DNA of 64,000 nucleotides, from positions 124,001 through 188,000 of the forward strand of contig JAQQAL010000011.1 of assembly GCA_028532855.1 (NCBI GenBank). The letters are read 5' to 3'. Below the pieces are notes generated by a model, which saw nothing but the letters and a program-made list of their open reading frames with translations, searched no databases and had not been told where the DNA came from. The position numbers were made by a program, and so were the translations under genes. Within the stretch, counting starts at the first letter, position 1; each line of letters begins with the position of its first letter. The DNA comes from Candidatus Thalassospirochaeta sargassi (lineage in GTDB: Bacteria; Spirochaetota; Spirochaetia; UBA9216). Below, piece after piece: positions 41,535-48,356 of this stretch.

Positions 41535-42575
41535 TTATCGGTATTTCTTTATTACTTTTTCTGCTTTTTTCCAGATTGCTTTCTTTACCTTTTCATCAGC
41601 ATAGATTGCATAAACTGTTTTTTTCATGATATCGATGATCTCATCTTCAGTGAAAATCTTGTTTTCATAAAGAAGTTCGTATTCCTCACAGAGATCCGAA
41701 CTGAAAAGGGTTGGATCATCTGAGTTAAGGGTTACGTAGAGGCCTCTGTTATAAAACTCTTTTATGGGATGCTCTTCTATTTTCTGTACGTATTTTTTGG
41801 TGAAGAGGTTACTTGTCGGGCATATCTCCAGAGGGATCTGATTATCTTTAAGATATGTCATCAGCTCTTCATCCTGAATGGCGCTTATACCATGCCCAAT
41901 TCTATCAACATTAAGATCTTTCAGGGCTGCCCAGATAGATTCCGGCCCGATGTCTTCTCCGGCATGGGCAACAACCTTGAGGTTGTTTTTTATCGCGCGC
42001 TCAAAAACAGCCTTATAATCTGCTGCTGGGCCCTTGCTTTCAGCGCCGCCGAGGCCTATGCCGATAATGCTCTTCCTGGGGTTATTAATAACAAGGTCCA
42101 GATTCTGTTCCGCATTTTCAGGGCCGAAGGTTCTTGATACATCTACAAGGAACTTAACTGTAATATTTGACTCTTCAAATATCTTCTTTGACCCGGCCTC
42201 TAGAATGTCGGCCATATGAGGAAAAGAAAACCCGCTCTGTACAAATTTTGAGGGTGCAAAAAAGATTTCAGCATATACAATATTATTACGGACAAGATAA
42301 TTCTGAGCATCAGTAATAAGATGCACAATATCCTGTTCTTTCCTGAAGCTCGACTGGATTACATTAAGGAAAAGACTGATAAATTCATCGAGGCTGTTTA
42401 CATTGAACCTTTTCTTCAGGTTTTCTTTAGAATCGCTTCCATCAAATTCAAGATGATTTTCCTGGACAAGATTCCATATTGTGTCAACACTGATTAGACC
42501 TTCTAAATGAAGATGAATTTCTGCCTTTGGGATTTCTCTAATTAATTCTTTGAAGCTATAATTTCCGGAACTCAC
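41535..42575 (-). CDS. add: Adenosine deaminase
   Basis: A 346-residue zinc enzyme converting adenosine to inosine. Seen: the metal motif AEIHLHLEG at residues 17-25, VVAHAGED (catalytic His/Glu region, about 200), RIGHGI, and SLNSDDPTLFSS (metal Asp and catalytic Asp). The start is GTG at 42575, with GGGG about 9 bases upstream. It is convergent with gyrA and fits with deoD in purine salvage and with ahcY, which releases adenosine. Confidence 0.93.
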   Translation of the reverse strand: MSSGNYSFKELIREIPKAEIHLHLEGLISVDTIWNLVQENHLEFDGSDSKENLKKRFNVNSLDEFISLFLNVIQSSFRKEQDIVHLITDAQNYLVRNNIVYAEIFFAPSKFVQSGFSFPHMADILEAGSKKIFEESNITVKFLVDVSRTFGPENAEQNLDLVINNPRKSIIGIGLGGAESKGPAADYKAVFERAIKNNLKVVAHAGEDIGPESIWAALKDLNVDRIGHGISAIQDEELMTYLKDNQIPLEICPTSNLFTKKYVQKIEEHPIKEFYNRGLYVTLNSDDPTLFSSDLCEEYELLYENKIFTEDEIIDIMKKTVYAIYADEKVKKAIWKKAEKVIKKYR

Positions 42576-43100: not shown

Positions 43101-43859
43101 ATGAATGGGAAAACTGTCGTATTCGCCAATCAGAAAGGCGGAGTCGGAAAAACCACTACAGCGGCGAATCTAGGTGCATATGTAGCGGAAGCAGGAAAAA
43201 AGGTACTACTCGTTGATTTTGATCCTCAGGGCAATTTGTCAAGCTGTGTCGGAGCGGACAGAAATCAGGCAGGAATCTATGAAGTTATAGTAGGAAAGAT
43301 GGAAATTCATCAGGCTCTTCAGCATAGCGCAATGGAAGGAATGGATATCCTCTCCTCGAATATAAATCTGACTGGTGCAAACGTAGAGCTGATTAATCTG
43401 GAAGATCGGGAATATTATCTTAAAAACAGCCTTGAAAAGATAAAAGATGAATATGATTATATTTTCATTGATTGTCCTCCGTCCCTTGGTGTTCTGACAC
43501 TTAACGGGCTGACAGCGGCCGATTCTGTTATTATCCCACTGCAGTGTGAGTATTTTGCGCTTGAGGGTTTAAGCCTTCTACTGCAGACGGTGAAAACCGT
43601 ACAAAAAGAACTGAATAAAAGTCTTGTCATAGACGGTATACTGTTTACCATGTACGACTCAAGAACTAGACTAGCGAATGAAGTTGTACAGGAGGTCTCT
43701 GGCTATTTCAAGGACAAGGTTTTCAGAACCATTATACCTAGAAACATCAGGCTTTCTGAAGCACCGTCTCACGGTGTTCCTGTCAATCTATATGATAAAA
43801 CCTGTATCGGCGCCAGAAGTTACGAGCGCCTGGCCGGGGAGGTGTTGAAGCGTGTCTAA
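43101..43859 (+). CDS. parA: Chromosome partitioning ATPase ParA/Soj
   Basis: A 252-residue deviant-Walker ATPase. Seen: FANQKGGVGKTTTAANLG (deviant Walker A, about 8-25), VLLVDFDPQGN, IFIDCPPSLGVLTLNGL and the DNA-binding region near RLSEAPSHG. It has no N-terminal HTH, so it is the chromosomal Soj type. It moves ParB-parS complexes and, in other bacteria, regulates DnaA. It overlaps parB by 8 bases. The ATG lies 9 bases after a TATAAT. Confidence 0.95.
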   Translation: MNGKTVVFANQKGGVGKTTTAANLGAYVAEAGKKVLLVDFDPQGNLSSCVGADRNQAGIYEVIVGKMEIHQALQHSAMEGMDILSSNINLTGANVELINLEDREYYLKNSLEKIKDEYDYIFIDCPPSLGVLTLNGLTAADSVIIPLQCEYFALEGLSLLLQTVKTVQKELNKSLVIDGILFTMYDSRTRLANEVVQEVSGYFKDKVFRTIIPRNIRLSEAPSHGVPVNLYDKTCIGARSYERLAGEVLKRV

Positions 43860-44730
43860 GCGACCAGCCCTTGGGAAGGGAATGAGCGCCCTCATTGGCG
43901 CAGCAGAATCTGCTGATGAATCCGACAAAAATGCAGTAATAAATGTTGCACTTGATAAAATTGAAGGTAACCCTGATCAGCCTAGAAAGAGCTTTGATCA
44001 GCACAGCCTGAAAGAACTTTCAGAGTCTATCAAAGAAAAGGGAATTATCCAGCCAATTATCGTTGAAGAAAAAAACGGTGCATATATGATCATTGCCGGA
44101 GAAAGAAGATTCAGGGCTTCAAAACTTGCAGGTCTTAAAGAAGTGCCGGTTATTGTAAAGAATTTTTCCGAGAATGAAAAACTCGAAATAGCTTTGATTG
44201 AGAACATACAGCGCGAGGATCTTAACCCGATTGAGGAAGCTTTTGCCTATCATGATCTGATGGATCGCGGCAACCTCAACCAGGAAGAGGTAGCTGCAAA
44301 GGTCGGTAAAAACCGATCTACCGTTGCAAACAGTCTTCGGCTTTTAAAGCTTCCTGAGAATATCCAGAACACCCTTGCGAAGGGTGCGATATCGTCCGGT
44401 CATGCAAGAGCTATTCTCGCCCTCGATACTGAAGAGCAGATGGAAGACCTGCATAAAAGAATAATAACCTACGGATTATCGGTTCGGGAGGCCGAGGCTT
44501 TTTCGGCAAACCGCGACGGCGGTAAAGCTGATGGGTCAAAGAAATCCGCAAAAGCCGGGGGTACTGATCTTCCCAGGGATCCGGAATTGAAAAGTATTGA
44601 AGAAAAATTTATCGATATATTTGGAACTAAAGTAAATATAAACGGTACCATGGAAAAGGGCCGCATAGAGATTTCTTATTTTTCAATGGAAGATCTCGAC
44701 AGACTCTATGAAATAGTAAAACCCGATTAA
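43852..44730 (+). CDS. parB: Chromosome partitioning protein ParB/Spo0J
   Basis: A 292-residue CTP-dependent parS-binding protein. Seen: KRPALGKGMSALIG, the NPDQPRKSF start of the CTPase domain, the GAYMIIAGERRFRAS motif, IALIENIQREDLNPIEEA, the HTH region NQEEVAAKVGKNRSTVANSLRLL and GHARAILAL. The C-terminal 45 residues are the dimerisation domain. GTG start, with GGGGAGG 8 bases upstream inside parA. Two parS sites occur 2.3 kb to the left. Confidence 0.95.
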   Translation: MSKRPALGKGMSALIGAAESADESDKNAVINVALDKIEGNPDQPRKSFDQHSLKELSESIKEKGIIQPIIVEEKNGAYMIIAGERRFRASKLAGLKEVPVIVKNFSENEKLEIALIENIQREDLNPIEEAFAYHDLMDRGNLNQEEVAAKVGKNRSTVANSLRLLKLPENIQNTLAKGAISSGHARAILALDTEEQMEDLHKRIITYGLSVREAEAFSANRDGGKADGSKKSAKAGGTDLPRDPELKSIEEKFIDIFGTKVNINGTMEKGRIEISYFSMEDLDRLYEIVKPD

Positions 44731-44796: not shown

Positions 44797-44825
44797 TTGA
44801 CAAAACCCCTGCTGATAAATATATT
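44797..44825 (+). promoter_or_regulatory. Promoter of the tRNA cluster
   Basis: TTGACA, 17 bases, TATATT, ending 25 bases before the first tRNA-Ser. Confidence 0.7.
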
Positions 44826-44850: not shown

Positions 44851-44935
44851 GGAGAGGTGTCCGAGCGGTCGAAGGAGGCGGTCTTGAAAACCGTTGAGCC
44901 GAGAGGTTCCGTGGGTTCGAATCCCACCTTCTCCG
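44851..44935 (+). tRNA. tRNA-Ser(UGA)
   Basis: 85 bases, class II, with a long variable arm. Acceptor GGAGAGG pairs with CTTCTCC and the discriminator is G. The anticodon loop CTTGAAA gives UGA. CCA is not encoded. Confidence 0.95.
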
Positions 44936-44953
44936 TATATTATTATTTATCCC

Positions 44954-45040
44954 GGAGAGGTGCGAGAGTGGTTGAATCGGGCTCCCTGCTAAGGAGTTGT
45001 GCTGGTAACGGTACCGAGGGTTCGAATCCCTCCCTCTCCG
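44954..45040 (+). tRNA. tRNA-Ser(GCU)
   Basis: 87 bases, class II. The anticodon loop CTGCTAA gives GCU, for codons AGC/AGU. G discriminator; CCA not encoded; a T-run follows. Confidence 0.95.
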
Positions 45041-45148: not shown

Positions 45149-45222
45149 GTACCCATAGCTCAGCTGGATAGAGCGTTAGGTTGCGGACCTAAAGGTCGGA
45201 GGTTCGAGTCCTCTTGGGTATA
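45149..45222 (+). tRNA. tRNA-Arg with anticodon GCG
   Basis: 74 bases, class I. Acceptor GTACCCA pairs with TGGGTAT (first pair G-U), D-arm GCTC/GAGC with A20, T-arm GGAGG/CCTCT. The anticodon stem TTAGG/CCTAA encloses the loop TTGCGGA, giving GCG (codons CGC/CGU). A20 and C35 are the known arginine identity elements. Most bacteria use ACG (inosine) here, so G34 is unusual. Discriminator A; CCA not encoded. Confidence 0.85.
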
Positions 45223-45279
45223 CTTTTTTTTTGTTTTCTCCAAATTTACGGAAAACAACCGGAAATAGGGGAGCACTCT

Positions 45280-45367
45280 GGAGAGATGCGAGAGTGGTTG
45301 AATCGGGCGGCCTCGAAAGCCGTTGTGCAGCTTGTCTGTACCCAGGGTTCGAATCCCTGTCTCTCCG
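45280..45367 (+). tRNA. tRNA-Ser(CGA)
   Basis: 88 bases, class II. Acceptor GGAGAGA/TCTCTCC; the anticodon loop CTCGAAA gives CGA, for codon UCG. G discriminator; CCA not encoded. Confidence 0.95.
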
Positions 45368-45407: not shown

Positions 45408-45492
<85 letters not shown>

Positions 45493-45681: not shown

Positions 45682-45710
45682 TTGATACCACGTTTATTAT
45701 CGGGTACAAT
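45682..45710 (+). promoter_or_regulatory. Predicted dnaX promoter, leaderless arrangement
   Basis: TTGATA, 17 bases, TACAAT; the dnaX ATG begins 8 bases after the -10. No ribosome site lies between them. Confidence 0.6.
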
Positions 45711-45717
45711 TCCGAAT

Positions 45718-47376
45718 ATGGCATATGAAGTAACCGCAACGCGACGGCGTCCCGGAATGTTCGAGGATTTAATCGGACAGGAATTCGTCGTTTCTACAAT
45801 AAAGAATTCAATTAAAGCCGGGCGAATAGCCCACGCATACCTGTTCTCAGGCCCCCGCGGCGTCGGCAAGACCTCTGCCGCCAGAATCCTGGCCCGGGCT
45901 GTAAACTGCGAAGAGGGTCCCACGCCGACTCCCTGCGGGGTCTGCAACGCATGTACCGAAATTACCCGCGGCAACGCACTCGACGTAATTGAGATAGACG
46001 GCGCGTCAAATACCTCGGTAAATGATATCCGCGAAATAAAGGACGAAGTCCTCTTCGCGCCGAACACCTGCAGATACAAGGTTTATATCATCGACGAAGT
46101 CCACATGCTTTCGACCTCGGCATTCAATGCCCTGCTGAAAACAATCGAAGAGCCGCCGCCCTACGTCATTTTCATCTTTGCAACAACCGAAATCCACAAA
46201 GTCCCCGCGACTATCCGCAGCCGGTGTCAGCAGTTCAACTTCAGACTGATTTCACTCGAAGAGATTAAAAACAGCCTAATGACCGCTGCAGCCGAGCTGA
46301 AAATTGAGGCCGAGGACGACGCCCTGTTCTGGATAGCGAAAGAAGCCACCGGCTCAATGCGCGACGCCTACACGCTTTTTGACCAGGTCGCAGCATTCTC
46401 AGACGGGCTGATAACGCTCGAAAAAATCCGCGAAAAGCTCGGTCTTGTCGGACTGGACAGTATGAACGCCATTGTTGAGGCCATGTGTGCCCGTAATTCG
46501 GCCGATGTAATAGACTTAAGTTCCGGCATCATTGCCGGCGGCGTATCAATAGAACAGTTTGCAGTCGATCTCGCTGAATACTTCAGAAGCCTGCTGTTCA
46601 TCCGCTGCGGCATTGAAAAGGAATCTCTGCTGGGATATGCCCGCTCTCGGTATTCGGAAAAAACAGTATCAGCTTTCTCAAAAACTCAGCTTGAAAAGGC
46701 TCTTGAAATAATATTCAGATTCTACCGGGAGGTTCGCTACTCTATAAATCCCCGTTTCGAGCTTGAACTCATGCTCAGTCAGCTCTCCGATCTCTCTGCC
46801 TGGGTCTCTCCGGCAGATGTCGCTGACAGGCTTGAGGCCCTAAAGCGCGCAATTGCCTCCGGTGAGGTTGAGCTTAAAGAGCCTTCGACAGCTCAGTCAG
46901 AACCAGCTGAGCAGCAGGCATCTCCGGCCCCGAATCCTGCTCCTGCGGCAATGAAGTCGGCACCGGAACCCGAACCCGAACCCGAAGTGGAAACGGAACC
47001 GGCGCATACAGCTCCCGCTGCTGCCTCCGAGGGGCCGCATGGGCTTTCCGCCGATGAGCGCAATGCAGTACTTGATGCGATTAGAAAAAAGAAGCTGACG
47101 CTTGCGGCATCGGTTGATCAGGCCGTTGGATGGAGACAGACCGAAGAAAGCATGAGCTTTTCCTTTGAGAACGCCTACCAGGCTGCTGTCGTCAAGAACG
47201 ACAGAAATCTGATAAAAGATGCAATTCAGGAAGTCACCGGCCGCAGCTTCGCAATTGAAGTAGAGGTGGTGCAGACTAAGAGCGCGGGATCAGCTGATGA
47301 AGAACAGAAGCTGAACAAGCAGGTAGACGCTGTAAAGAAAGTCTTCCGCGGCGAAATAATTCAGGGTGGTAATTAA
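45718..47376 (+). CDS. dnaX: DNA polymerase III subunit gamma/tau
   Basis: A 552-residue clamp-loader ATPase. Seen: the MAYEVTATRRRPGMFEDLIGQE opening, Walker A FSGPRGVGKTSAARIL, a zinc module with CEEGPTPTPCGVCNAC, Walker B IIDEVHML and sensor ATTEIHKVPATIRSR. A Pro/Glu-rich linker (about 395-435, repeated EP) precedes a C-terminal tau domain. The frame is open 36 bases further upstream, but MAYEV matches the family and lies 8 bases after a -10 element. Codons 456-458 (AGA AAA AAG) contain the heptamer A-AAA-AAG, a possible -1 frameshift site. Confidence 0.95.
   Translation: MAYEVTATRRRPGMFEDLIGQEFVVSTIKNSIKAGRIAHAYLFSGPRGVGKTSAARILARAVNCEEGPTPTPCGVCNACTEITRGNALDVIEIDGASNTSVNDIREIKDEVLFAPNTCRYKVYIIDEVHMLSTSAFNALLKTIEEPPPYVIFIFATTEIHKVPATIRSRCQQFNFRLISLEEIKNSLMTAAAELKIEAEDDALFWIAKEATGSMRDAYTLFDQVAAFSDGLITLEKIREKLGLVGLDSMNAIVEAMCARNSADVIDLSSGIIAGGVSIEQFAVDLAEYFRSLLFIRCGIEKESLLGYARSRYSEKTVSAFSKTQLEKALEIIFRFYREVRYSINPRFELELMLSQLSDLSAWVSPADVADRLEALKRAIASGEVELKEPSTAQSEPAEQQASPAPNPAPAAMKSAPEPEPEPEVETEPAHTAPAAASEGPHGLSADERNAVLDAIRKKKLTLAASVDQAVGWRQTEESMSFSFENAYQAAVVKNDRNLIKDAIQEVTGRSFAIEVEVVQTKSAGSADEEQKLNKQVDAVKKVFRGEIIQGGN
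47085..47091 (+). promoter_or_regulatory. Candidate -1 frameshift site in dnaX
   Basis: A AAA AAG in the correct phase (codons 456-458). In the -1 frame eight codons follow before TGA, giving a gamma-like protein of about 466 residues that lacks the C-terminal domain. E. coli dnaX uses the same heptamer. No strong upstream Shine-Dalgarno or downstream hairpin is evident. Confidence 0.4.
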
Positions 47377-47708: not shown

Positions 47709-48356
47709 GTGAATGCCCTCGACCAGCTGGTTAAAACACTTTCAAAACTCCCCGGCATCGGCTCAAAAAGTGCCCGTCGTGTCGCGCACCATCTTCTGAA
47801 AGCCGATTCCTACTGGGTTGCTGAGCTTGCATCCCAGATTGCAAAACTTCAGGAAAGCGTAAAAAACTGTGAAATATGCGGAAACTACACCGAGGAATCA
47901 CCCTGCTCAATCTGTTCGGATTACAGCCGTGACCGTAAACTTATATGCGTTGTCGAACAGCCTGAAGATATCGGCACAATTGAGCTCACAGGCGATTTCA
48001 ACGGCCTTTACCATGTCCTGGGCGGTGTAATCTCTCCCATAGACGGGATGGGGCCCGAAGAGCTCTCCATCGGCCGTTTGCTGCAGCGGCTGAAATCCGG
48101 CGGGGTTGAAGAGCTGATAATTGCGACAAACCCTACCGTAGAAGGCGAAACAACAGCCCTGTACATTGTAAACCTGCTGAAGGACTCCGGTCTGCGGATA
48201 AGTCAGCTTGCATCAGGACTGCCTGCCGGAGGAGATCTTGAGTATGCCGACAGGCTGACTATATCAAGATCACTAAAAGGACGCCGAACCCTGCTTAAAC
48301 CGAAGGAAAGCCTGAAATCAATCGGCAGCCCCGAACCGGAAAAACCCCTCTTTTAA
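47709..48356 (+). CDS. recR: Recombination protein RecR
   Basis: A 215-residue ring-forming protein that works with RecO/RecF to load RecA. Seen: LSKLPGIGSKSARRVAHHLL helix-hairpin-helix, a C4 zinc finger CEICGNYTEESPCSIC (about 56-71), and a TOPRIM domain with VVEQPEDIGTIE and ATNPTVEGETTALYI. The start is GTG, with GGAG 7 bases upstream; no suitable ATG. Confidence 0.95.
   Translation: MNALDQLVKTLSKLPGIGSKSARRVAHHLLKADSYWVAELASQIAKLQESVKNCEICGNYTEESPCSICSDYSRDRKLICVVEQPEDIGTIELTGDFNGLYHVLGGVISPIDGMGPEELSIGRLLQRLKSGGVEELIIATNPTVEGETTALYIVNLLKDSGLRISQLASGLPAGGDLEYADRLTISRSLKGRRTLLKPKESLKSIGSPEPEKPLF

Follow-up and report, generated by a model that had tools for sequence, protein, structure and literature searches.

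A tRNA-Arg(GCG) gene without TadA in Candidatus Thalassospirochaeta sargassi, and the division of its phylum between GCG and ACG anticodons

Most bacteria read the arginine CGN codons with an anticodon that is edited to inosine. The tRNA-Arg gene considered here, from the spirochaete Candidatus Thalassospirochaeta sargassi, has a GCG anticodon, and the question that it raises is whether this tRNA stands in for the edited one, or is an extra isoacceptor beside it. The gene lies in a stretch of 64,000 nucleotides (contig JAQQAL010000011.1, positions 124,001 to 188,000, assembly GCA_028532855.1), hereafter the window, whose own numbering is used below. We consider it very probable that tRNA-Arg(GCG) is the main arginine tRNA for CGU and CGC, that TadA is absent, and that this state most likely arose once and early, most simply through an A34-to-G34 swap together with loss of tadA.

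The tRNA gene and the arginine decoding set of its genome

The tRNA-Arg with a GCG anticodon that the preliminary description of this DNA had placed at 45149-45222 is confirmed: ARAGORN reports a tRNA-Arg (gcg) on the + strand at 45149-45223, and Rfam model RF00005 spans the full 45149-45222 with 66.3 bits (gathering score 29), so the tRNA is intact. Its anticodon loop, TTGCGGA, reads U32 U33 G34 C35 G36 G37 A38. The minimum free energy fold contains no cloverleaf and is weakly better than those of shuffled sequences (z -1.59), and for this reason the call relies on ARAGORN together with the covariance model. The gene is the third in a cluster of five tRNAs, Ser(UGA), Ser(GCU), Arg(GCG), Ser(CGA) and Ser(GGA), and ARAGORN, Rfam and Pfam place the cluster in the order parA, parB, tRNA cluster, SRP RNA, dnaX, recR, as follows.

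43101..43859, + strand: parA, upstream of the cluster (Pfam PF13614)
43852..44730, + strand: parB, upstream of the cluster (Pfam PF02195, PF17762)
44797..44825, + strand: promoter-like TTGACA-17-TATATT, 5' of the cluster (11 of 12 consensus positions; a consensus match only)
44851..44935, + strand: tRNA-Ser(UGA), at the head of the cluster; accompanies tRNA-Arg at GCG and ACG loci alike
44954..45040, + strand: tRNA-Ser(GCU); accompanies tRNA-Arg at GCG and ACG loci alike
45149..45222, + strand: tRNA-Arg(GCG), anticodon 45183-45185, G37 at 45186 (ARAGORN, RF00005, sequence)
45280..45367, + strand: tRNA-Ser(CGA) (ARAGORN, Rfam)
45408..45492, + strand: tRNA-Ser(GGA); separated from tRNA-Arg by tadA in the ACG loci L059 and L175
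45502..45600, + strand: small bacterial SRP RNA, scr/ffs (RF00169, 55.9 bits)
45682..47376, + strand: dnaX, DNA polymerase III gamma/tau (Pfam PF13177, PF12169, PF22608)
47709..48356, + strand: recR (Pfam RecR_HhH, RecR_ZnF, RecR_C)

The genome assembly to which the window belongs (53 contigs with 3,835,059 bases in all, completeness given as 100%) contains 44 tRNAs, in which ARAGORN identifies a tRNA-Arg set of GCG, UCG, CCG, UCU and CCU. No tRNA-Arg(ACG), the gene that would have made GCG a mere extra isoacceptor, is found among these 44 tRNAs. The preliminary description had foreseen that a further tRNA would be needed for CGA, and tRNA-Arg(UCG) is indeed present (G000:C18:20714-20787, G000 being this genome), as is tRNA-Arg(CCG) (G000:C6:93611-93684). 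Its suggestion that TadA might be dispensable on tRNA-Arg also agrees with what was found: the TadA model NF008113 has no match in this genome, is positive in 12 of 14 control genomes, and finds TadA in ACG genomes of the phylum. An adenosine deaminase gene in the window, at 41535-42575 (-), is not TadA; Pfam assigns it to the purine-metabolism family PF00962. CGA is an ordinary codon here, making up 83 of the 888 arginine codons in 46 window ORFs (CGT 125, CGC 171, CGG 110), where the CGA and CGG counts describe usage and not codon meaning. Also missing from the 44 tRNAs are tRNA-Ile(GAU) and tRNA-Ala(UGC), a gap that usually points to an rRNA operon left out of the assembly, as is probably the case here.

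By wobble rules, tRNA-Arg(GCG) would be the main reader of CGU and CGC, with G34 pairing directly with U and C, so that no inosine would be made. CGA would be read by tRNA-Arg(UCG), and CGG by tRNA-Arg(CCG) and possibly also by UCG. TadA would then have no tRNA substrate, in keeping with its apparent absence from the organism.

Comparable arrangements have been described elsewhere. In the available text of the sources, species without A34 tRNAs also lack TadA (PMC8072771), and TadA-less Mollicutes, e.g. the M. pneumoniae group, carry GCG and UCG without tadA, for which a stepwise route was proposed of UCG gain, tadA loss and change of ACG to GCG (PMC3711424). The present genome shares this G34-U34 scheme for CGN, with GCG and UCG present and neither ACG nor tadA found. 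However, in the Mollicutes concerned the genome is reduced and tRNA-Arg(CCG) is missing (PMC3711424, as available), whereas this genome measures 3.84 Mb and has kept tRNA-Arg(CCG), so that the trait peculiar to the Mollicute variant is not seen here. CPR bacteria have been described with GCG, UCG and CCG and without ACG, as here, although they belong to another phylum and some of them reassign CGA and CGG (PMC8629427, available portions), a reassignment of which the present genome gave no obvious sign.

Anticodon and TadA across the phylum

A 2021 review states, in its available text, that all sequenced Spirochaetes have Arg(GCG) replacing Arg(ACG), as do Thermotogae, and links ACG with the occurrence of tadA (PMC8007984). 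The replacement of ACG by GCG is thus already known for spirochaetes, and the swap seen here is the same one, in the same phylum. Because the trait is clade-wide and, by that text, already in print, the rarity that the preliminary description implied for the GCG scheme was overstated for this phylum.

We searched 296 genomes of the phylum with tRNA patterns for GCG, ACG and UCG and with NF008113. First-pass matches were obtained for GCG in 146 genomes, ACG in 75 and UCG in 146, and a looser pattern, applied to the 75 genomes that had so far matched for neither anticodon, added 43 GCG and 8 ACG (doubtful looser-pattern matches in G044, G216 and G261 being counted as neither). The two anticodons proved mutually exclusive: 189 genomes had GCG, 83 had ACG, none had both, and 24 were assigned neither. 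Contrary to the statement in the available review text that all sequenced Spirochaetes have GCG (PMC8007984), ACG was therefore found in 83 of the 296 genomes sampled. The window's own class comprised 115 GCG genomes, no ACG genomes and 3 with neither (118 in all); in these three, G194, G261 and G271, which are nearly complete, the patterns found neither GCG nor ACG, and G271 is the RpoB neighbour of the window's genome. The UCG pattern matched in 117 of 189 GCG and 20 of 83 ACG genomes, and since it is strict, the 72 GCG genomes that it did not match may be misses. In G302, three tandem tRNA-Arg(GCG)-like genes lie within about 220 bases (G302:C1:1413224-1413439).

The distribution of TadA follows that of the anticodon. 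NF008113 reached at least 85 bits in 71 genomes, namely 68 of the 83 ACG genomes, 1 of the 189 GCG genomes (G093) and 2 genomes without an assigned anticodon. The G093 protein (locus L106) fits a guanine deaminase better than TadA when compared with PDB entries (188.9 versus 76.6 bits), and we rejected it as TadA, as we did the protein of G018 (L095; 149.3 versus 84.7 bits). A third protein, L100, from a GCG genome, is ambiguous between the deaminase types (70.7 versus 65.9 bits). The same comparison recognised two deaminases used as positive checks: that beside the ACG tRNA of L071 matched a putative cytosine/adenosine deaminase (138.1 bits) and tRNA-specific adenosine deaminase (135.6 bits) well above guanine deaminase (73.2 bits), and the divergent protein of L059 scored 49.3 bits for TadA versus 30.8 for guanine deaminase. 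NCBIfam could not separate the deaminases, because TadA was the top model for all ten proteins submitted, each under the cut-off except the true TadA of L071; the remaining deaminase candidates from GCG genomes were judged by eye, on motifs only. Fifteen of the 83 ACG genomes had no NF008113 match of at least 85 bits; seven of these belong to family f29, f53 gave weaker matches, and G181 and G227 are incomplete. Where the f29 ACG genomes were read, they encode a short, divergent TadA of about 141-147 amino acids with HSE replacing HAE (L059 3134-3556, L113 303-743, L114 436-870).

When named genomes were scanned, the GCG pattern yielded 51 loci, 47 of them with spirochaetal titles, including Borrelia sp. 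BU AG58, Borrelia persica and Candidatus Marispirochaeta associata; no TadA-family match was found in the two named Borrelia genomes. The other four were titled Proteobacteria (two), Synergistales and Chloroflexi. The Synergistales-titled genome (L148/G317) combines a GCG pattern match with a TadA match of 153.6 bits, and represents either a mixed bin or a genome in which the two truly coexist. Among the 51 loci, those whose ParA, ParB, DnaX and RecR are closest to the window's come from uncultivated Spirochaetales, the nearest being L154, L140 and L143, and L154 is 93% identical in ParA and 75% in DnaX. On the strength of these titles, the phylum is taken to be Spirochaetota.

A shared locus for the ACG and GCG genes

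We read 20 ACG and 20 GCG loci, and then 20 more ACG loci (four genomes stand twice among the 40 ACG loci, having been taken again with longer flanks), and scored them for tRNAs, ParA, ParB, DnaX, RecR and TadA. ARAGORN confirmed tRNA-Arg in 38 of the 40 ACG loci and all 20 GCG loci. The two failures, L072 2960-3160 (G061) and L180 5320-5480 (G236), are 3' fragments of tRNA-Arg(ACG) and were rejected as genes. A second match to the ACG pattern lies about 25 kb away in G061 and 20 kb away in G236, and the fragments resemble attachment sites left behind by elements that integrated at tRNA-Arg(ACG). Both genomes are counted as ACG above, although one pattern match in each (in G236, one of its two ACG matches) is such a fragment.

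The two kinds of gene occupy a common locus. In L059 and L175, both of family f29, the order is Arg(ACG)-tadA-Ser(GGA)-dnaX-recR, with Ser(UGA)-Ser(GCU) upstream of Arg(ACG) in L059; in the window, L162, L132 and L165 it is Arg(GCG)-[Ser]-Ser(GGA)-dnaX-recR. The arrangement Ser, Ser, Arg(GCG), Ser(GGA), dnaX without tadA recurs in the window, L076, L078, L082, L084, L132, L162, L165 and others, the window's full order being Ser-Ser-Arg(GCG)-Ser-Ser-SRP-dnaX-recR. Many other ACG loci have Ser(UGA)-Ser(GCU) 5' of Arg(ACG), and in a good part of them tadA follows Arg(ACG) directly. Only the two f29 loci have tadA between tRNA-Arg and dnaX; elsewhere among the ACG loci tadA stands beside tRNA-Arg without dnaX found nearby, or lies at another place. 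The window's tRNA-Arg(GCG) is thus the positional counterpart of the tRNA-Arg(ACG) kept beside tadA in related lineages. The available text of the 2021 review describes neither a common locus nor tadA beside the tRNA (PMC8007984).

The tRNAs themselves differ in the anticodon loop. G37 occurs in 21 of 23 GCG tRNAs versus 3 of 20 ACG tRNAs, and C32 in all 20 ACG tRNAs versus 1 of 23 GCG tRNAs. The earlier proposal that G37 fits a changed decoding scheme therefore stands in part: the tie between G37 and GCG is a real association, and it is not a requirement, since some GCG tRNAs have A37 (L079, L090) and the ACG tRNAs of L059, L060 and L175 have G37.

Origin of the GCG state and its meaning

An RpoB tree of 55 genomes across families (23 ACG, 28 GCG, 1 without assignment, 3 others; 1141 columns), quickly built under a simple model, divides the ACG from the GCG genomes by one change on a branch with support of 100 (SH-aLRT only). 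It needs one change whichever the direction, and its three outgroup rows are uninformative on this point, having been chosen through their own GCG tRNA. The differences in anticodon and tadA would thus most likely have arisen once, early in the phylum. For the direction we turn to Bacillus subtilis, in which, as described in the available part of PMC10454642, the dispensable yaaJ (tadA) lies directly 5' of scr-dnaX-yaaK-recR. From this common linkage of tadA with dnaX we infer a change from ACG to GCG with loss of tadA at the dnaX locus, the simplest steps being an A34-to-G34 change plus removal of tadA from between tRNA-Arg and tRNA-Ser(GGA)/dnaX. We lean somewhat towards the further view that the phylum still shows, at the same point of the chromosome, the states before and after a single ancient wobble switch, Arg(ACG)-tadA-Ser-dnaX in one deep branch and Arg(GCG)-Ser-dnaX without tadA in the other, with some ACG genomes that have UCG as a possible intermediate.

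Alternatively, one could suppose that the phylum began with G34 and no TadA, and that A34 and tadA entered the ACG lineage later, side by side. The RpoB tree would accommodate this equally with one change. In many ACG genomes tadA adjoins tRNA-Arg(ACG), much as would be seen if the two had been transferred as a cassette, and in several ACG genomes the anticodon stem of the ACG tRNA closely resembles that of UCG tRNAs. However, f29 genomes share with B. subtilis (PMC10454642, available part) a tadA gene placed at the dnaX locus, which suggests an old common position, and we regard such a gain as unlikely, though to be taken seriously. Acquisition of tRNA-Arg(GCG) from an archaeal or other source, displacing a native ACG tRNA, could be imagined from the GCG, UCG and CCG set that the available text describes in CPR bacteria (PMC8629427), but is very improbable: the locus and its tRNA-Ser neighbours are those of the ACG gene, GCG is clade-wide, and outside the anticodon the window's tRNA is closer to the L055 ACG tRNA (about 0.81 identity) than to its own genome's UCG tRNA (0.75). 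That GCG is a mere extra isoacceptor, with tRNA-Arg(ACG) and tadA hidden in sequence missing from a 53-contig assembly that does lack tRNA-Ile(GAU) and tRNA-Ala(UGC), is hardly credible and we reject it, because the class-wide result speaks against an unassembled gene (no ACG match in 118 genomes, several of them single-contig, and GCG in 115) and no GCG genome has a TadA match of at least 85 bits apart from the guanine deaminase-like protein of G093.

What is added here to the known trait is the split between ACG and GCG within the phylum and the before-and-after locus; we found no text on either in the available portions of the literature searched. The printed generalisation that all Spirochaetes have GCG is narrowed for the phylum as sampled, and TadA A-to-I editing should not be expected in this class. 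Bacterial tadA is commonly regarded as essential, and the losses on record come mainly from organisms with reduced genomes. Spirochaetes that live without tadA, in genomes of about 1 to 5 Mb, can be set beside relatives that keep it, which offers a natural comparison for a change of wobble rule. If a single switch is indeed what occurred, a usually conserved editing enzyme would have been lost in large, non-reduced genomes by a path other than genome shrinkage.
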